A stretch of DNA of 64,000 nt from Monosporascus cannonballus. Lineage: Eukaryota > Ascomycota > Sordariomycetes > Xylariales. A model generated the notes under the pieces. That model saw only the letters and a program-made list of their open reading frames with translations. It was not told the origin of the DNA and ran no database searches. The translations under genes were made by a program, and so were the position numbers. Below are positions 41,863 to 60,570 of this stretch, piece after piece. The stretch is taken from NCBI GenBank assembly GCA_004154925.1, contig QJNS01000096.1, positions 62,001-126,000 of the forward strand, written 5' to 3'. Numbering within the stretch: position 1 is the first letter of the stretch; the number at the start of each line of letters is the position of its first letter.

Positions 41863-44185
41863 CTTTTAAACTGAAATACAGACTATTTCAATATTTGGTT
41901 ATATTAATAAAACTTACGAACGTACTAGTAACCTTTTAACGAATAGTAAACCATATATTACGAGAATACCTCCATATTTTTATCGTTTGCTATTTTGACA
42001 ACATATTTATTTTTTCAAAAACGGAAAAAATATATATAGGATACGTTTATAAAATTTTTCAAGTTTTACAGGACGTAAGACTATTTGTTAACGCGGAAAA
42101 AAGTTAGTTCTATAAGCAAAAAGTGAAATATCTGGGATATATTATTACCTGAGGATATATTAAAATAAATTTTAAGAAAATTACTGTAATTACAGAATAG
42201 CAAACGTTAACGATAATTAAGGAAGTACAGGCATTTCTTAAATTCGCTAATTATTATAGAAAATTTATTCGAAATTGTAGTAAAATAATTATACCCTTAA
42301 TAAATTTTACGAAGAAAAAAAGGTTTAAATAAACGCTAAATACGAAAAAAGTATTTTAGGATATCAAAGATATAATTATTAATAAATTAATATTAATTAT
42401 ATATAATTTAAACCGCCCCGTTAAGCAAAAAACCAATATTTCGAATTACGCGTTAAATATAATTATCGGTTAATAAAATAATGAAGGCAAATTATATCAT
42501 ATTATATTTTTTTCGTATAAATTAAAAAAAAGCCGAACTTAATTATCGTATTCCAAATAAAGAATTTATGGTTATTATTATAGCATTTCGAGAATTTAAG
42601 TATTTTTTAAAAAGAAATTTGTACTAGGTTAAAGTTTATACGGATTATCAAAATTTTACCCGATTTACCACGACCAAAAAATTTATAAAACGAAAGTTGA
42701 AATATTTTAAAAAATTGGCGAATTTCGATTTGGTTATTATTTATAGGAAAAGCTTAGAAAATAATAAAGTAAATACCTTAAGCAAGCGGCTAAACCTCAA
42801 AAGAATTGAGTAAAATCAGTTATATAATTTTCGATACTATTATAAAAAATATTTACGTTTATGATAGAGTATAATAATTTGAGCAATGCTGTTCGATATA
42901 TACCAGAAGATTTAATAATATAATAACGGTTTTCTAAAAAACCAAAAAAAACAAATAAGATATAAGTTTTAGAAAAATACTAAAAAAATCTAATACGAAA
43001 AATATACGAACAATAATTATACGGATATCTAGGGATCCATAAAACTTTAAAACGATTTTAACGGATATATTCCTTTTTTAAAATAAAATTAGTAATACAA
43101 AAAATTATATGGCAATACGATATTTGCGCCAAAACAAAAATTCGACGATATAAGCTATACGGAAAATTATAATTATTATTAATTACAAAACGACCATAAT
43201 ATTTAGTTACATTCGATTTTATTATTCAATTTTCTATATCAAAAAATCCAAATAAAAAATTAATAGTTATATCAAATTTTTCATAAGGTTTTATAGTATA
43301 AATCGGCTTAAATCATAATTTATTTAACGTATTTAAACCGTAAACGGACGGATAAATAAAACAAATAAATTAAATTTTGGAAATTTATTTATAATGTTAT
43401 ATTAATTACGAACAAAATAATTAAATTAAAAAATTCTTAATCGCATAATTAACTTATAATATTAGTTATTAATAAAATATTAAGATAATATTAATAAACG
43501 CAAATTTTAATTTTATTTTAAAAATTTACAAAATAATACGTAATAACGGTTTAATTGATATTAAAATAGTTTTTACGTCAAAATAATTACGATAGTTGTA
43601 TTAAGAAATAAAAACGGAACTAAAATTCGTACGAAATCAAATAAATAAGTATTATAATTAAAGAAACTTAGAAAATTAATTTTTGAAAAAGGAAAAATAG
43701 TTCTTTTTATTATCAAAAACTTTTAAACAAAACGATTTAACAACAAACTTAATTTTAAATATATCGGTCCATATAAAATTATTAAAAAATCTTAAAAAAT
43801 AATTATTAATTAAAATGTTTATTAAAAATTAAATTCCATCCAATTTGTTATTTTTTATTCGAATTAATAGCAGATATAATTAAGGTATATACGGTACAAA
43901 ATAATGTAAAAATAAAAAACAAATAAATATACGAAATAAAAAGAATTTTCGATATTTAAAAACGAAATAAATTTACCTAATACTTGATTAAATAAAAAAA
44001 GCACCCGGATTCCGAAAATATCTAGGAACCCGTTAAAAATCTTATTAGCACTTAACACCTATTAAAGAATTTTTATTAATAATAACGGACGCGTTCCAGT
44101 TAACAGCCGACCAGTTAATAGCCGGGATATCGGGCTAATCGGCCGCGGCCTGCGTTAACGTAATAACCGTAATAGCGGCCTTTAA

Positions 44186-44644
44186 TTATTTTTGCTTTTT
44201 TTCGAAACGCTTAAATTCCTTTATAACTTCCGCACCTTTAATATTTCGACAAAATATTTCGATATTACGATAACGGAATAGCCGTCTTTGTTTTTGCAAA
44301 CGATTTAATTTATTAACAATTATTTATAATATTTCGTAAACTTATTCCTTTTTACGTTTTAAACGATCTTTTTTATCTAAAAGTTTTTGATATTTAATTT
44401 CTAAAGGACCAAAAATATTATAAAGGCCGCTATAATAGATATAATACGTATATTTTAAAATACCCCCAACAACCTTATATTTTATGCCTTTTTTATAACA
44501 AAAATAAAAAAATATTTTGAAACCAAAACGTTTAATATATTTTGAAAGAATAAAAACGTTAATACGTTTACGAAAACGAGATTTTTTTCCGCGATTCGAC
44601 ATAATAAAAATAAAAAAGGAAAAGTTACGTAATAAAAATAACAA
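44186..44644 (-). pseudogene. Antisense ORF of chromovirus A: Zn2Cys6-like plus coiled coil (decayed)
   Basis: On the strand opposite gag-pol, between integrase/chromodomain and the 3' LTR, an open stretch of 100 codons (44644-44342) begins near MSNRGKKSRFRKRINVFI. It continues with a Tyr/Cys-rich section that aligns with the six-Cys pattern seen in copy C, then GPLEIKYQKLLDKKDRLKRK. After a TAA the same frame carries VNKLNRLQKQRRLFRYRNIE and ends around 44186. Basic start, cysteine module and Arg/Leu/Gln-rich helix together look like a DNA-binding regulator. RIP has changed cysteines to tyrosines here. Confidence 0.55.
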
Positions 44645-46027: not shown

Positions 46028-46319
46028 CGATTTCCCCCTTTTTAAGATCTTTGCCCTTAAAGATTCAATTATTTGTTTATTAATTCTGGTACGTAACCAT
46101 TTTTTTTATATTTATTATATCGAGTCGTGTTAAAAAATCCCGTTTTCGTAAACGTATTAACGTTTTTATTCTTTTTAAAACGTATTAAAGGTTTTAATTT
46201 TAAAAATATTTTTTTATTGTCGTTATAAAAAGAAAATATAAAGTATAAGGTTATTAGGGGTTCTTTAAAATAGGCGCGTTATATGTATTATAATAGTTGT
46301 TATAATATTTTTATTTTTT

Positions 46320-46531
46320 TAAAAATTAAATATCAAAAACTTTTAGATAAAAAGGATCGCTTGGAACGTAAAAAAAGGCAGGTTCGTAAAACGTTACGAA
46401 CGGCTGCCAATAAGCTGGACCGTTTGTAAAAACAGAGGCGGCTGCTCCGTCGCCGTAATATCGAGATGTTTCGTCGAGGTATTAAAGGTACGGAGGCTAT
46501 AGAAAAATTTGAGTATTTAAAAAAGAAATAA
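46320..46531 (+). pseudogene. Antisense ORF of chromovirus D: coiled-coil part
   Basis: The plus strand here (antisense to D gag-pol) encodes IKYQKLLDKKDRLERKKRQV, then RKTLRTAANKLDRL, one TAA (a Gln codon in copy C), then KQRRLLRRRNIEMFRRGIKG and TEAIEKFEYLKKK. It is the best-preserved copy of the helical tail. The cysteine part upstream (about 46200-46300) is scrambled by small indels. Confidence 0.55.
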
Positions 46532-49500
46532 CAATAATTGGAGATTGTCGTTATTGTGATGATATGCACAGCTAGTTCTTATAAGGTGGATTAGAGTGTC
46601 CAAATTCCAATTAGGGTTTGGAATTGCTAATCTTTTAGTATTGTAGCTAGCGTCGCACCCTCGTTATCTCACAGTTATAATTATTACGTTAACGTAGGCC
46701 GCGACTAACTGGCTCGATATCCCGGTTACTAATTGGCCGATTGCTAATTAGGACGCGCCTGTCGTTATTAATAAAAGTTTTTAATAGGCGTTAAATGCTA
46801 ATAAGATTTTTGGCGGGTTTCTAGATGTTTTCGAAATCCGGATGCTTTTTCCATTTGATCAAATATTAAATAAGTCCGTTTTGTTTTTGTATATCGAAGA
46901 TTTTTTCCACTTTATATATTTGTTCGTTTTTTACTTTTACATTATTTTATATTATATAGATTTCGACTGTATCTATTATTAATTCGAATAAGAAAACGTA
47001 AAAAAATGAAATAAAATTTAACTTTTAAAAAAGGTTTTAATTAATAATTATTTTCTGAGATTTTCTTAACGATTTTGTATAGATCGATATATTTAAAATC
47101 GAGTTTTTCGCTAGGTTATTTTATTTGAATATTTTTGGTAATAAGGAAAATTATTTCTCCTTTTTTAAAGATTGGTTTTTTTTAATTTCCTTGGTTATAA
47201 TATTTGCTTATTTAGTTATATACGAATTTTAATACTTTCGTAATAATTGGTATTATAAGTTAATTAAATAATAGATAATTTGTGAATTTTATTATTTTAT
47301 TCGTTTTATTTATTTATCCGCTTTTGGTTTAAAAGCGTTAAATAATTTGTAATTTAGCTTAATTTTTATTATAAGGCTTTGCTAAAATTTTGATGCAAAT
47401 ATCGATTTTTTATTTAAAACGACTTTTATTAATAATCCGTATATATTAAAAATATATCTAAAAAATTGTATGTTATTTGTTCGACCTTTATATCTTTATA
47501 ATATGGTAAAAAAAAGAAAATTTCCGTAAATAGATCGACGATCACGAAAATGCTATCGTAATATATTTTCGTAGTTGGATTTTCTGATATAAGAAGCTTG
47601 ATAATAAAATCGAATGTAATTAAATACTATGATCGTTTTGCGACTAGTAATAGCTGTAGTTTTTCGTATGGCTTATGTCGTCGAGTTTTCGTTTTGGCGC
47701 AAATATCGTATTGCTATATAATTTTTTATATTGTTAATTCCATTTTAGGAAAGAAAAATATACGTTAAAGCCGTTTTAAGATTTTGTAAATCTCTGGATA
47801 TTTATATAGCTGATATTCGTATACGTTTCGTACTAGATTTCTCTGGTATTTTTCTAGAATTTGTATTTTATTTGTTTTTTGATTTTCTGAGAGACCGTCG
47901 TTATACTGCTGGATTTTCTGATATATATCAAAGAGTATTGCCCGAATTGTCGTAATTTATCGTAGGCGTAAATTTTTTTTATAATGATATCGAAAATTAT
48001 ATAGCTAATTTTAACTAATTTTTCTTTAAAGTTTGGTTACTTATTTAAGATATCAGCTTTGCCGTTCTCTAAGCTTTTTTTGTAAATAATAACGCAATCG
48101 AAATTCGCCAATTTTTTTATATAGCGAAATTATCGTCCGGTAAGTTTCTTGGTCGTAGTAAATCGAGTAAGATTTTGATAATCCGTATAAACCTTGATCT
48201 GATGCAAACTTCTTTTTAAGAAATATCTAAATTCTCGGAATGTTATAATAATGGCTATAAATTCCTTATTTGAAATTCTATAATTCAATTTGTTTTTTTT
48301 AAATTTATACGAAACAAAATATAATAAGGTGTAATTTGCATTAATTATGTCGTTATCTAATTATTATGCTTAATACGTAATCGAAAAAATCGGTTTTTAA
48401 TTTAACGGAATGGTTTGGATTATATATAATTAATACTGATTCGCTAATAATTACAGCCTTAATATCTTAAAACGGTTTTTCGTATTTAGTATTTATTTAT
48501 TTTTTTTTTCGTAAGGTTCGTTAGGGGTATGATTATTATGCTAAAGTTTCGAATAAATTTCTTATAGTAATTAACGAATTTAAAGAATACCTATACCTAT
48601 TTAACCGTTATTAACGTCTGCTATTTTATAATTATAACGATTTTTTGGGGTCCATCTTAATATATTCTAAGGTAAAAATATATCCTAGATAATTCATTTT
48701 TTATGCGTAAAATTAACTTTTGTTTGTATTAATAAGTAATCTTACGTCCTATAAAGCTTAAAAAACTTTATAAACGTATTCTATATATACTTTTTCCGTT
48801 TTTAAGAAAATAAAAAATATCGTCGAGATAGCATACGATAAAAATATCGAAATATCTTCGTAGCATATACTTAACTATTCGTCAGAAAATTATTAATACG
48901 TTCGTAAATTCTATTAATATAACCAAATATTCAAATAGTCGGTATTACGTCTTAAAAGCTATTTTCTATTCGTATCTTTTATTAATTTTAATAAAATTAT
49001 ATCCATCTTTAAGATCAAATATTATAAACTATTTGGCTTTATAAAGTCGGTTTTTTATTTTTATGATTAAAGGTAATAATATTCGATTTTTAATAGTAAT
49101 ATTGTTTAGTTATTAATAGTTAATTATAAATTGCAATTTTTCGGTTTTTTTTTCAATACGAAAAATATATGCTATCTTACTAATAACTTCGAAAATCAAA
49201 TCCATCTTTTTTGTAACCGATTTTCTCGGTATTCTTTAAGAACGCGTAATTTGTTTTCGTTAAAGTTGTAAATAGGGTAAAACTTCGTCGAAAATTCTTT
49301 CTTAAAAATTATCTTATAATTTTATTTGGTATATTCCAGTAATTTCGTATTAAGCTTTTTTTGAAAAGAAAAGCTGTTCGTATTTGTAATATTAAAATAA
49401 TACATTAATTAAAATTTTTAATTTTTAGGACTGTTATTTTAAATGGTTATTTAATTACTTTAATTCTGCTTTAATGGTAATAACGATATGTCGTATTTTT

Positions 49501-53783: not shown

Positions 53784-53788
53784 CGATA

Positions 53789-54196
53789 TGTTATGACCTA
53801 ACGGTCTTGGCTTCTTTTCAGACGGTCGGAACCACGAAAAGGTCAGTTCCGAACCAAGCCAAGACGTCACGTGACTGGCTCAAAGGTTTCAAGGCGCCAA
53901 GCACCTTGAACCCCTTAAGCCAACAGGAAAAGCTCAAAGGGCTTAACGGGCTTAAGGGTTTAAGCCGCTTAAGCACCTTAAGCTAAGGCAAGGATATATA
54001 CGTTTATTATTTCCATAATTTAAATAATTTTAGCTTATAATATTTATTAATATTAATTATTTATAATAAAATATTTCCGATATTAAGAAATATAATACGT
54101 TATTATATTTATTACTTAAATTCCCACGATATTTTTATTAATATAAATCTGTTAACTTAAGGTTTAATAATTAGTTAAACCTTATAGGCCGTTATA
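53789..54196 (+). repeat. 5' LTR of chromovirus C (408 bp)
   Basis: TGTTATGACCTAACGG... to ...AGGCCGTTATA. The first 200 bp are nearly unmutated and hold the TTAAGC motif array. A TATA-like GATATATAC lies at about 53992 with AGCTTATAATA about 45 nt downstream. CGTTATAAG follows the LTR. Confidence 0.9.
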
Positions 54197-56837
54197 CGTT
54201 ATAAGTTTTTGTTTAATAATATCGTCAGATTCTAAGCAATATTTAACATTATTAAAAGGTCGATTAGCGCTTAAAAAACCTTTACTTAATAACTTTAGGC
54301 TCGAATTCGGGAGTTGGAAAGAAAAGTTCGATAACTTAGGGTTATGCCGCCTGCCTAACCTTTTTTCGCCCGCATAAAGCCCAAAAAGCCAGAACCTTAC
54401 GATAAAAAAGATAACCTTTTGATTTTCCTAATTTAGGCACGAATTTATTTTCGTTTTTTAAATTTTAATAACCCAGCGGATATGGTCCTAGCAGTAAGAG
54501 CATGCCTAATAAAAGATGCGGCTAATTGATTTAAGCCTATTATAAAAGATTTCTTAAAAATAAAAGAAATAAATAAAGAAATTTTTATTAATAAGATTCT
54601 TTTAATTTATACCAATTTCGAAAATAAAGTATGCGATAATTTCGGCAATCCGGATAAAAAACGATTAACGGCTTAATAACTTTTATAATTCCGATAAAAA
54701 GGATTGGCGTCCAAATACGCCGTAACCTTTAAGAATTTCGCGGCTAAGGCGAGATAAGGAGATAATAAAGCCGATACCTTTATCGATATATTTTATAAAA
54801 GGTTAAAAGATAATATAAAAGATAAGATTATTCGGATTAAACGATTAATTGTTTTAAACCAGTATATCGTAAAGATAATTAAGATTAATAATCGACAGTT
54901 TAAAAGATAATAAGAGAAAAAGTGATAATATGCCTTATGTTCGGAATATAATAAGTTTAATCAGGGGAAAAAAAGAAACGTACCCTTTACTTTTTACGGA
55001 ACGGTACCAGGACTTTTTAAATTCGACGTTACCCATAAATAAAATTAAAGCCAGATTAAAGGCTTTAATTATGGCAAAATAGGATATAAGGCTTATAAAT
55101 GCAAAAAACCTAAAGAATTACGATAAAATAACTAGACCTTTATATTAAAGACATAACCTAGGAATAATTAAGGAAACGACAGTAAAGCTATTAATATAAT
55201 TTAAGCTAAGTATATAATAAGCCTATAGCCAGAGGTTTAATAGGGACTATTACGATAAGAAATTCGATAAAGGATGCGAGAAGCCAGGAAATTAGTTTAA
55301 CAGGTATTACGAACATAATAAAAAATGTTATAAGGATGGTTATACGAATATTGAGATTGGACAAAAGAATTTTGCCCCGGAATACCCGATAAATACGGTA
55401 AAATATATGCCATATACTGTCGACGACGAAAATATCCCGATTACGAAAAATGGAAATAATATATTTATGTACGAATTACCTGCATATATTATAAGGGATT
55501 ACATTTCCCAAACCGTACCGGGCATAATAAAAATAATAAATAATGGTATCGATAATTTCGAATTATAGCCCTAAGAAATATTTAATAATTGGCCGAAATA
55601 AAAAGTTGGCCTAAAGGAAAATAATGCCTGCAAAAAGATTTTTTTTGTTATTATAGATAATATAATTATTAAACGGAAAAGGAATTAATTTAACGTACGG
55701 TTAAAAAATATTATTAAAAAGTTATTACGGATTTTTATTTTTAATTGGTATTTATTGCGGATCTCTAAGAAAAAAAGGTTATTAAGAAAAAAATATGTTA
55801 ATTTATAGAAGATCTCTGGAACGATAATTAAAACGACATATAATGGAATACGGTTGTAAATATAAAAAAACAATTTATTCGATAAAGAAAAAAATTATAA
55901 AAGAATTAAGAACAGTTAATACGGTTCGAAGGAACAATATGCCAACAATAACGATAAATATAGCAATTAGATGCGTTAAACGAAAAAACATAAGTAAGGT
56001 TTAACAGATTCGAATAAAAGTTAAAAAAAAAGATTATCTGTAAAAAAGCTGCAGAATAACGAGATTTAAAGGAATTAAAGGAAATTCTTAAAAAAGGCTT
56101 TGAATGCGACCATAAAAAACGTTAATAACTTTATTACTTTGGAAATATAAATTGGAACCTATTAATGTATTATAATGGTGGATTACGGAGCTGTGGGCGG
56201 AATTTATATTATACCGGATGTGGTTAATAAATTTAAATTATTATAAAAATATAGGTTAAAACCTTATATAACGACGAATGCCGAAAATTAGGAATTTATT
56301 TATAATAACGGAAAAATTATACGCGAAATTAATTACTTCGAGATTTTTATTTAAGAATAATATTAAACGGTTAATTTCGATATCGTTTTATTCGGGAATT
56401 ACGATATAATGTTAAAATTATTATGGATACGTTAATACGGAATCTTAATTAATGGAAGGATTGGCCAGGTAAAATTCGCCTTATACCTTATTAATAAATA
56501 AAAAAAGAAAAAATTAAAATCTTAATATTTAATCGATAATAATAATAAATGTAAGTATAAAGATACGATAAATACCTTATTCCTTAAAGAAATAAAATAC
56601 AAAAAAACAAGTATTAAAAAATACGATGTATCGTTATTATTATTAAAACGAAATTAAAGCAATTAAATAACGATTTAAAATAATAAAAACAGCCGCCTAA
56701 GAAATTAAAAAAGTCTGATTAATATCTTACCATAATATTATAAATACGAGCAGCTTTTTAAAAAGGAATTTAATATAAAATTATTCGAATATAGCGAATA
56801 GGACCATAAAATAATCCTTAAAAAGGATTTTCGACAA

Positions 56838-59505
56838 AGTTTTATCTTATTTACAATTTTAACGGAAACGAATTACGTATTTTTAAAGAATACCTAGAAG
56901 ATTGGTTACAAAAGAGATGGATTTAATCTTCGAAATTACTAACAGGATACTTTATATTTTTCGTACCTAAAAAAATGGGAAATTACGATTTATAGTTAAT
57001 TACCGATAATTAAATAATATTACTATTAAAAATTAAATATTATTATTTTTAATTACGGAAATAAAAAACCGACTTTACGGAGCTAAATAGTTTATAATAT
57101 TCGATCTTAAAGATGGATATAACTTGATTAGGATTAAAAAAGGATATAAATGAAAAATAACTTTTAGGACGAAATACGGATTATTTAAGTATTTGGTTAT
57201 ATTAATAGGACTTCCGAACGTACCCGAAACCTTTTTGCGGATAATAAACCATGTGTTACGAAAATACTTTAACGTTTTCGTCGTTTGCTATCTCGACGAT
57301 ATTTTTATCTTTTTAAAAACGGAAGAAGTATATGTAAGATACGTTCATAAAGTTCTTTAAGTTCTATAAGACGTAAAGTTATTTATTAATGCAAAAAAAA
57401 GTTAGTTTTATATATAGGAAATGGAATATTTGGGACATATTATTACCTTAGGACATATTAAGATGGACTTTAAGAAAATCGCTGCAGTTATAAAATGATA
57501 AACGTTAACGATAGTTAAGGAGGTATAGGTATTTCTTGAATTCGCTAACTATTACAAAAGTTTATTCAGAACTTTAGCAAAATAATTATACTTTTAATAA
57601 AGTTTACGAAGAAAAAAAGAATTTAAATAAACGCCAAATACGGAAAAAGTATTTTAAGATATTAAGGATGCGATTATTAACGAATTAATATTAATTATGT
57701 ACGATTTAAACCGCTTTGTTAAATTAGAAACCGATATTTTAAATTACGCGTTAAGCGTAATAATCAGATAACGAAATAATTAAGGCAAATTGTACCTTAT
57801 TATATTTTTTTTCGTATAAATTAAAAGGAGCCGAACTTAATTACGGTATTTCAGGTAAGGAATTTATAGCCATTATTATAGTATTTCGGAAGTTTAAGTA
57901 TTTCTTAAAAGGAAATTTGTATTAGGTTAAGGTTTATACGGATTATCAAAATTTTACCCGATTTATTACGATTAAATAATTTATAGGACGATAATTAAAA
58001 TACGTAAAAAATTGGCAAATTTCCATTTCGTTATTATTTACAAAAAAGGATTAAAAATAGTAAAACAAATACTTTTAGTAAACGACCAAACCTTAAAAAG
58101 AAATTGGTTAAAATTAACCATATAATTTTCGATATTATTATAAAAAGATATTTATGCTTACGATAAATTGCGACGATTCGGGTAATACCTAATAATATAT
58201 ATTAGAAAATCCAATAATATAATATTAATTTTTCAGAAAACCTAAAAACGGATAAAATATAAGTTTTAAAAAAATATTAAAAAGATTTAGTACAAAAAAA
58301 TACGAATATTAATTATATGGATATTTAGAGATTTACAAAACCTTAGAAAAGCTTTAATGCATATATTTTTTTCCTAGAATTAAATTAACAGTATAGAAAA
58401 TTATATAATAATGTAATATTTGCGCCAAAGTAAAGGCTCGACGACATAAGCCATACGGAAAATTATAGTTATTATTAGTTACAAAACGACCATAATATTT
58501 AATTATATTTAACTTTATTACCAAATTTCTTATGTCAAAAAATTTAGTTATAGAAATACATTACGATAGCATTTTCGTAATTGTCGATCGATTTACGAAA
58601 TTTTCTTATTTTTTACCATATTATAAGAATATATATGCCGAATAACTGGTATATATTTTCTTCACACATATTTTTATTATATACGGATTATTTATGGAAA
58701 TTATATCAGATAAAAAATTAATATTCGTATTAAAATTTTAATAAAGCCTAATAACATAAATCGGCCTGAATCATAAGTTATTTAACATATTTAAACTATA
58801 AATGGATAAATAAATAAAACGAATATACCAAATTTTAGAAACTTATTTACGATATTGTATTAATTACGAACAAAATAATTAAGTTAAAAAGTTATTAATT
58901 GCATAAATAATTTATAATACCAGTTATTACGAAAGTATTAAGATAATACCTGGGACGTAAATTTTGATTTTATTTTAAACGTTTATAAAAAAATACGTAA
59001 TAACGGTTAAATTAATATTAAAGCAATTCTTACATTAAAATAATTACAATAACTGCATTAAAAAGTAAAAACAAAATTAAAATTTATACGGAATTAAATA
59101 AATAAATATTATAATTAAAAAGGGTTAAAAGGATTATTTTTCGAAAAAAAGAAAATGGTTTTTTTCGTTATTAAAAATATTTAAATAAAGCAACCCAGCA
59201 AAAAACTTGATTTTAAATATATCGGTTTATATAAAATCGCCAAGAAAATCTTAGAAAATAATTATTAATTAAAACTTTTACCAAAAGTCAAATTTTATCT
59301 AATTCTTTATATTTCCTTATTCGAATTAGCAGTAAATATAATTAAAGTATATATAATATAGGACGATATGGAAATAAAAAACGAACGAACATATAAAGTG
59401 GAGAAAATTTTCGATATACGAAAATAAAACGGATTTACTTAATATTTAATTAAATGGAAAAAATACCCAAAATCCGAAAACACCTGGAAACCTGCTAAGA
59501 ACCCT
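56838..59505 (+). pseudogene. pol region of chromovirus C (RT, RNase H, integrase, chromodomain)
   Basis: The RT part reads FGSEYLEDWLQKRW-like segments with stops, then VCYLDDIFIFLKTEE at about 57280-57320, in which both catalytic aspartates survive. A QKFTRIYYD-like RNase H part and an integrase H2C2-like segment (GYLEIYKTLEK near 58320) follow. At 59398-59505 a chromodomain keeps the aromatic Trp residues in LIKWKKYP and ENTWKP, which in this domain contact methylated histone H3K9 and steer integration to heterochromatin. Stops and small shifts make it non-functional. Confidence 0.75.
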
Positions 59506-59653
59506 ATTGGCGCCTAGCGCTTATTGAAAAACTTTTATTAATAACGACGGGCGCGTTTTAATTAAGAGTTGACCAGTTAGTAGCCGGGATATCGGGCCAG
59601 TTGGCCGCGGCCTGCGTTAACGTAGCAGTTGTAACGGCGGCCTCCAATTATTT

Positions 59654-60108
59654 TTATTCTTTTTCGAGGCGCTTAAATTTTTTTATGGCCTTTATACTTT
59701 GAATATTGCGATAAAGCATTTCCATATTACGATAACGAAATAGCCACCTTTGTTTTTGCAAATGATTTAATTTGTTGGCGGCGGTACGCAACGTTTTACG
59801 AGTTTGTTCTTTTTTATATTTTAAACGGTCTTTTTCGTTAAGAAATTTTGGTATTCGGCCTTTAAAGGACCAAAAACGTTATAAGGACCCTTATAATAAA
59901 TATATTGCGCATATTTTAAAAACCTTCGAACAACTTTATATTCCGTATTTTCCTTTTCGTAACGGGAATAAGAAAATATTTTGAAATTAAGACGTTTAAT
60001 ACGTTCTAAGAGAATTAAATCGTTAATACGCTTACGGAAACGAAATTTTTCGATTCGGCCTGATATAATAAATATGTAAAAAGGAAAGTTACCTACCGAA
60101 ACTAACAA
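59654..60108 (-). pseudogene. Antisense ORF of chromovirus C: Zn2Cys6-spaced module plus coiled coil (decayed)
   Basis: Minus strand, between chromodomain and 3' LTR. The N-terminal part is basic (SGRIEKFRFRKRIN). It is followed by FSYSRYEKENTEYKVV, RRFLKYAQYIYYKGPYNVFG and PLKAEY. Tyrosines TAT/TAC at six positions sit at spacing X2, X6, X8, X2, X6, the CX2CX6CX5-12CX2CX6-8C spacing of fungal Zn(II)2Cys6 clusters, and each is one G-to-A step from Cys. After a 1-base loss near 59845 the frame continues as RKTLRTAANKLNHLQKQRWL and IKKFKRLEKE to the TAA at 59654. Equivalent frames exist in A and D. Reading it as a zinc-cluster/coiled-coil protein is inference. Confidence 0.6.
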
Positions 60109-60157
60109 ACAAATAATTTGATCTTTAGGGACAAAAATCCTGGAAAAGGGAAGATTA

Positions 60158-60565
60158 TGTTATAATTTAACGGTCTTAGCTATTTTTCAAACAGTCGAAA
60201 CCACGAAAAGGTTAATTCCGAACCAAGCCAAGACGTTACGTAACTGGCTCAAAGGTCTTAAGGCGCCAAGCACCTTAAGCCCTTTAAGCCAGCAGGAAAA
60301 GCTTAAAGGGCTTAACGGGCTTAAGGATTTAAGCCGCTTAAGAATTTTAAACCAAGGCAAGGATATATATGTTTATTATTTTTATAATTTAGATAACTTT
60401 AATTTGCAATATTTATTAATACTAATCGTTTATAATAAAGCATTTCCGGTATTAAGAGATGTAATATGTTATTATATTTATTGCTCAGATTCCCACGATA
60501 TTTCTGCTTATATAAACCTGTCAACTTAAGATTTAATAGTTGGTTAAATCTTATAGGCCGTTATA
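60158..60565 (+). repeat. 3' LTR of chromovirus C (408 bp)
   Basis: TGTTATAATTTAACGG... to ...AGGCCGTTATA, then CGATA. Same length as the 5' LTR, with C/T and G/A differences. Confidence 0.9.
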
Positions 60566-60570
60566 CGATA

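Follow-up and report, generated by a model that had tools for sequence, protein, structure and literature searches.

The function of the antisense accessory genes of retrotransposons with long terminal repeats (LTRs) is described as not settled (PMC7264820). In fungi, Boty-like retrotransposons of Botrytis cinerea carry an additional antisense gene, brtn (PMC8365987, PMC5987419, PMC4227169), and the Boty gag-pol has a CHROMO domain (PMC4227169). Here we describe an antisense gene that is likewise an extra gene of a fungal chromovirus and that encodes a module with six cysteines in zinc-cluster-like spacing. It lies in element C, a Ty3 element decayed by repeat-induced point mutation (RIP), in a stretch of 64,000 nucleotides (the window) from contig QJNS01000096.1 of Monosporascus cannonballus. 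The likeness to brtn is by description, not by BRTN sequence; a limited literature search for a zinc-cluster antisense gene of a fungal retrotransposon led only to brtn, and if BRTN has already been described as a zinc-cluster protein, the gene reported here is less new.

Antisense open reading frames are also known from plant Ty3 elements (aORF-3R: Grande gene23, RIRE2 and Retand TRP28), and a nuclear or DNA-binding role has been suggested there too. They differ in belonging to another host kingdom, Retand being described as a non-chromovirus, and in having TRP28 or other domains, with no six-Cys module mentioned in the accounts available to us (PMC7264820, PMC11963269). The closest functional comparison is HBZ of human T-cell leukemia virus type 1 (HTLV-1), an antisense regulatory retroelement protein expressed from the 3' LTR; here the likeness lies in gene position, and HBZ is a bZIP protein whereas the Monosporascus gene encodes a zinc-cluster-like module (PMC10186651).

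Copies of the gene were collected from the same genome, an 88.8 Mb assembly of 618 contigs, by DNA comparison (the best 40 of 748 candidates were scored) and with the protein P0004, a homologue from Monosporascus sp. 5C6A (at least 151 matches from 983 candidates, 150 scored). Sixty loci were cut, four of them duplicate places, and the resulting 56 (copy C being L001) together with copies A and D of the window gave 58 copies; with 12 further loci, fetched for likeness to L038, a set of 68 copies was compared. The loci were found by the antisense gene itself, and the count covers elements that have it. In all 60 loci (56 distinct), the opposite strand carries pol at the C-terminal side of the gene, with an LTR at the N-terminal side, and a chromodomain was matched in 58; the gene is an additional open reading frame on the strand opposite to pol, between pol and the 3' LTR. 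At L045, L046 and L078, the gene or its U3 passes into unrelated sequence, probably through nested insertions or truncations.

We assessed coding by per-copy counts and by the homologue P0004, an unmutated protein of 194 amino acids (E 1.9e-44). Codon 31 of the register corresponds to Met1 of P0004; this start codon position (window 60064-60066 in copy C) reads ATA in copy C, and copy A has ATG there. Differences among copies were reduced to purine/pyrimidine (R/Y) changes, which RIP cannot cause. Across the 58 copies, R/Y-variable columns numbered 17, 11 and 36 at antisense codon positions 1, 2 and 3 (of 155 each; p = 3e-4), and the same count in the LTR gave 8, 14 and 7 (p = 0.23; 54 copies). 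Stops occupied 229 of 8964 codon cells. RIP-type stops aside, the frame is conserved: 224 of the 229 fell in columns with CAA, CAG, CGA or TGG in another copy.

The cysteine pattern of the antisense module is CX2CX6CX8CX2CX6C. The earlier note on this DNA had pointed to six Tyr codons in copy C at X2-X6-X8-X2-X6 spacing, each one G-to-A step from Cys. We confirmed these six codons (minus strand: 59968-59970, 59959-59961, 59938-59940, 59911-59913, 59902-59904 and 59881-59883), and the Cys-to-Tyr alternation is that of RIP, in which TGY becomes TAY by the change TpG to TpA. Exactly six of the 155 columns in the 58 copies contained at least 85% Cys plus Tyr with at least three Cys, and these are the six positions; no such six-column agreement arose in 20,000 shuffles, and the other five frames gave 0 to 3 of the six. 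The less mutated copies do have Cys there: among the 60 locus rows (including the 4 duplicates), L031 and L038 keep all six and L060 five. P0004 has its cysteines at 33, 36, 43, 52, 55 and 62, the same six places. A register was obtained in 66 of 68 copies, L031 and L038 still being the only ones with all six Cys; 11 of 396 cells were neither Cys nor Tyr, a low count that is partly built in, as the register rule needs at least four of the six to be Cys or Tyr. Spacing between positions 2 and 3 was X6 in 62 of 70 copies and X5 in five, three of which fit only four of the six positions and are probably frameshifted; in three it was not found. The Tyr columns 86, 87 and 101, outside the module, contained 6, 1 and 5 His in 32 copies and never Cys.

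The search for protein relatives beyond P0004, among candidates limited by length and shared words, returned nothing significant, and relatives of A2 were found neither in viral nor in prokaryote contigs. P0005, a metagenome protein fragment of 130 amino acids (E 2.3), matched over the coiled coil with an hhalign probability of 96.5 and a single 7-residue gap; it is probably a distant relative within a putative wider fungal family.

The encoded protein would have about 186-200 residues: behind a basic N-terminus come the six-Cys module, a putatively dimerising coiled coil and a C-terminal tail in which Trp, Asp and Asn are frequent. GAL4 and other Zn2Cys6 regulators combine the spacing CX2CX6CX5-12CX2CX6-8C with a coiled coil after it and a target of inverted CGG triplets, the classical site of Zn2Cys6 homodimers. 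P0004, L031 and L038 fit this spacing, and the antisense protein resembles the GAL4 type in the coiled coil following the module and in having inverted CGG triplets as a candidate target; it differs in being borne by a retrotransposon and in lacking the large regulatory domain. AlphaFold was run with 16 sequences and then with five. Both runs predicted helices at 68-119 and 125-152 (pLDDT, the predicted local distance difference test, mostly 72-86 with 16 sequences and 63-80 with five), and in the second run the module formed a helix at 34-39, a strand at 43-46 and a helix at 53-57 (pLDDT about 63), each short helix following the first Cys of a half. The Pfam Zn_clus match of P0004 (E 0.001), though below its cut-off, and GAL4 (3coq) as third of four insignificant PDB matches (E 1.1) speak for a zinc cluster. 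No bZIP match was found with Pfam in the proteins scanned.

The 68 copies fell into three module classes of 48, 7 and 13 copies, class 3 being large because 12 of its copies were fetched by likeness to L038; classes 3a and 3b are its U3 subtypes, with L078, which has its own U3 type, counted under 3b. The distance from the sixth Cys to the second-helix motif, measurable in 61 of 68 copies with 7 left out, was 51 residues in class 1 (43/43), class 2 (7/7) and P0004, 58 in class 3b (4/4) and 65 in class 3a (7/7). These are exact heptad steps, which is what selection on a coiled coil would give, and they support coding.

An inverted repeat, GGTCGG-N19-CCGACC, lies in the U3 about 35 bases from the LTR start, with N21 in most class 3a copies. 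Exact GGTCG..CGACC was present in 30 of 68 copies versus 0.3 in shuffles, and all classes were represented (17/48 in class 1, 3/7 in class 2, 5/7 and 5/6 in the two parts of class 3); a RIP-tolerant pattern was uninformative, being found in 65 of 68 copies versus 59.6 in shuffles. R/Y conservation was 0.99 in the arms, 0.84 in the spacer and 0.85 on average in the U3. Genome-wide, the pattern had 454 sites versus 14 for the reversed control, and among the matches listed were at least nine site pairs separated by 6.3-6.6 kb, a spacing that two LTRs would have. The U3 contains other motifs as well. An array of GGCTTAAG / CTTAAGCC boxes, e.g. at window 60230-60350, is possibly a further binding array; CTTAAG occurs 187 times in 66 of 68 copies versus 18.6 in shuffles; and the palindrome GTTACGTAAC (window 60235-60244), in a conserved part of the U3, resembles a bZIP (Yap-type) site.

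Every module class goes with its own type or types of U3, compared here over bases -340 to -140 from the antisense start codon. With cut-offs set by us for module, U3 and pol types (0.12 and 0.10 with 56 copies; 0.14, 0.11 and 0.06 with 68), we obtained six U3 types, none common to two module classes, and one C-terminal/pol type covering 64 of 68 copies across all classes. Between classes, R/Y divergence was 14-22% in the module and 10-18% in the U3, with 4-6% in the 90 bases beside the LTR; the N-terminus gave 7-10%, and pol with the C-terminal end 3-7%. Classes 1 and 2 differed by 6.5% in the first part of the coiled coil. The U3 also diverged inside the classes, by 2-3% (class 1), 4-11% (class 2) and about 11% (class 3). 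Pairwise distances in 56 copies were intercorrelated from the U3 through the coiled coil (0.48-0.81) and little correlated with pol (0.09-0.33), and so this part moves as a block. The separability of the U3-to-coiled-coil haplotype block from pol suggests recombination or template switching near the pol end.

We consider it almost certain that the antisense frame is a real gene, as the earlier note had held. The 31 antisense codons before the start (window 60067-60159) are also nearly stop-free although they lie over the primer tract, with 0.57 stops per 100 codons in the 58 copies, which would suit a frame open by chance across from conserved non-coding DNA; a chance frame is highly improbable and was rejected, as it is contradicted by the unmutated P0004, the third-position bias, the six Cys/Tyr columns and the heptad-exact lengths. 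A zinc-cluster-like fold is quite probable. With slightly better than an even chance, the whole represents an accessory gene, decayed by RIP, that in a family of Ty3 chromoviruses encoded a GAL4-like regulator of its own LTR, its least secure part being the binding of that LTR, which we regard as evenly balanced. The antisense transcript would start from a promoter in the 3' LTR, and the protein would bind zinc in its module and dimerise through the coiled coil. The dimer would bind the inverted GGTCGG repeat in the U3 of both LTRs and tune how the element is transcribed, much as inverted CGG triplets serve GAL4-type regulators; the direction of this regulation we infer. Divergence peaking in module and U3 with lower values between them would also be expected of a regulator and its target.

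Two other readings accept the gene and place its function elsewhere. The protein could be an accessory protein with a zinc module that does not bind DNA, a zinc-stabilised coiled-coil adaptor for RNA, Gag particles or nuclear import. We hold this to be doubtful: the missing basic patch between Cys2 and Cys3, the weak Zn_clus score and a coiled coil that is the best-supported fold suit an adaptor, whereas the class-specific U3 types beside class-specific modules do not, nor does the presence in every class of U3 copies with the inverted GGTCGG repeat. Alternatively, the inverted repeat could be the site of a host zinc-cluster regulator that the antisense protein counteracts or copies, with module and U3 paired by linkage only. 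The correlated distances of the linked block and the further conserved boxes in the U3 are compatible with such a host site, but the between-class divergence, highest in the module and the U3 with lower values in what separates them, speaks against it, and we rate this reading as rather unlikely, somewhat below the adaptor.

Several observations weigh against the reading as an accessory gene for a GAL4-like regulator, or leave it untidy. The zinc-cluster identity suggested by the earlier note holds for the cysteine spacing and not for the profile score: Pfam Zn_clus (PF00172) gave 19.6 bits on P0004, below the cut-off of 21 (E 0.001), and 15.7 bits on L031 (E 0.017), with no match in L038, L060, L046 and L029 or in four read-through RIP-mutated copies. 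In GAL4-type clusters, basic residues between Cys2 and Cys3 contact DNA; the antisense protein lacks this patch, the segment being EKEGVD in P0004 and KFANKT in L038. The module had a pLDDT below 50 in the first AlphaFold run, and Foldseek and VIA-align returned coiled-coil or helical matches only, with no zinc cluster among the matches listed. A profile of 16 sequences matched no zinc-cluster chain. Tyr/Cys alternation is not confined to the module, as in 32 copies it was also seen before the start codon, with 13 Cys in column 16, and in the Arg-rich columns 141 and 149 (3 and 2 Cys), while module positions 2 and 1 had one His and one Arg. In comparisons with class 3, the coiled coil is in its first part as divergent as the module (23-25%), and within class 3 the U3 diverges by 11% versus 4% in the module; as module and U3 are neighbours, linkage alone may explain their pairing. 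The arms of the inverted repeat rank about 26th of 260 six-base U3 windows, and with some 25 windows scoring above them other U3 boxes are conserved too. The end of pol, with counts of 3, 6 and 7 (p = 0.44; 53 copies), had too few variable columns for periodicity and gives no positive control. None of the 58 aligned copies has an intact frame, the only one free of in-register stops, L014, having a frameshift.

Element C is a Ty3 chromovirus, with reverse transcriptase, RNase H, an integrase zinc-binding domain and a chromodomain, in differing frames, between LTRs that are 86% identical to each other (Table 1). Models of gag and the integrase core had no match at E 0.1 in the pieces scanned. 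RIP is reflected in the dinucleotide indices, TpA/ApT being 1.11 in element C versus 0.82 in a GC-rich stretch of the window and (CpA+TpG)/(ApC+GpT) 0.62 versus 1.18. Around other copies, no LTR pair was found in four 9.9 kb stretches, beyond the ends of which the far LTR may lie. Monosporascus assemblies of 70.6-103 Mb have been described, some with AT-rich contigs without predicted genes (PMC7407469).

In copy C, about 90 bases lie between the antisense start codon and the beginning of the 3' LTR upstream of it, and the gene end overlaps the chromodomain tail to tail. The earlier note had placed the frame at 59654..60108; the reading frame stands and the extent does not, the gene being longer and split by one frameshift into the stop-free pieces 59821-60159 and 59654-59878. 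Of 18 copies compared, 16 have the stop at 59504-59506, the exceptions being D, with a gap there, and L045, which enters other sequence. Copy A has a single frame with in-frame stops. Copy D, in which the earlier note had seen the helical tail, retains the module region as well, out of one frame.

Table 1. Positions of element C, its antisense gene and the related copies in the window
Feature	Position	Strand	Basis or remark
Element C, RIP-mutated Ty3 chromovirus	53788..60570	+	LTR pair, pol domains, RIP indices
5' LTR, element C	53788..54201, ends approximate	+	LTR pair (53787-54201 / 60156-60570)
3' LTR, element C	60158..60570	+	LTR pair, as above
Reverse transcriptase domain, element C	56971..57444	+	PF00078, E 2e-21
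Chromodomain, C-terminal end of pol, element C	59392..59535	+	PF00385, E 9.9e-11
Antisense accessory gene, copy C	59504..60066	-	Homologue P0004; interrupted by one frameshift and by stop codons; ATA as start, TAG as stop
Six-Cys (now Tyr) zinc-cluster-like module, copy C	59881..59970	-	
Coiled-coil helices, copy C	59611..59865, approximate	-	Mapped from P0004 model (H68-119, H125-152); heptad steps
C-terminal tail with repeated Trp, Asp, Asn, copy C	59504..59610, approximate	-	
U3 inverted repeat, element C	60193..60223	.	RIP-mutated in copy C; candidate target
Antisense gene, copy A	44042..44602	-	ATG kept, in-frame stops
Six-position module, copy A	44420..44506	-	Positions 2 and 3 separated by X5
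Antisense gene region, copy D	46120..46805, approximate	+	Element D on minus strand; frameshifts and an insertion

The alternation of residues, Cys/Tyr as against His/Tyr, makes a gene recognisable in RIP-mutated copies without a consensus. The role of this gene is directly testable, as its module is of a recognisable type, a putative dimerisation helix follows and the element's own LTR holds a candidate DNA target. More tentatively, the GAL4-like antisense regulator and its U3 target may be exchanged together, as a single cassette, between elements with a common pol backbone, and one genome would then hold several self-recognising regulator-LTR pairs.
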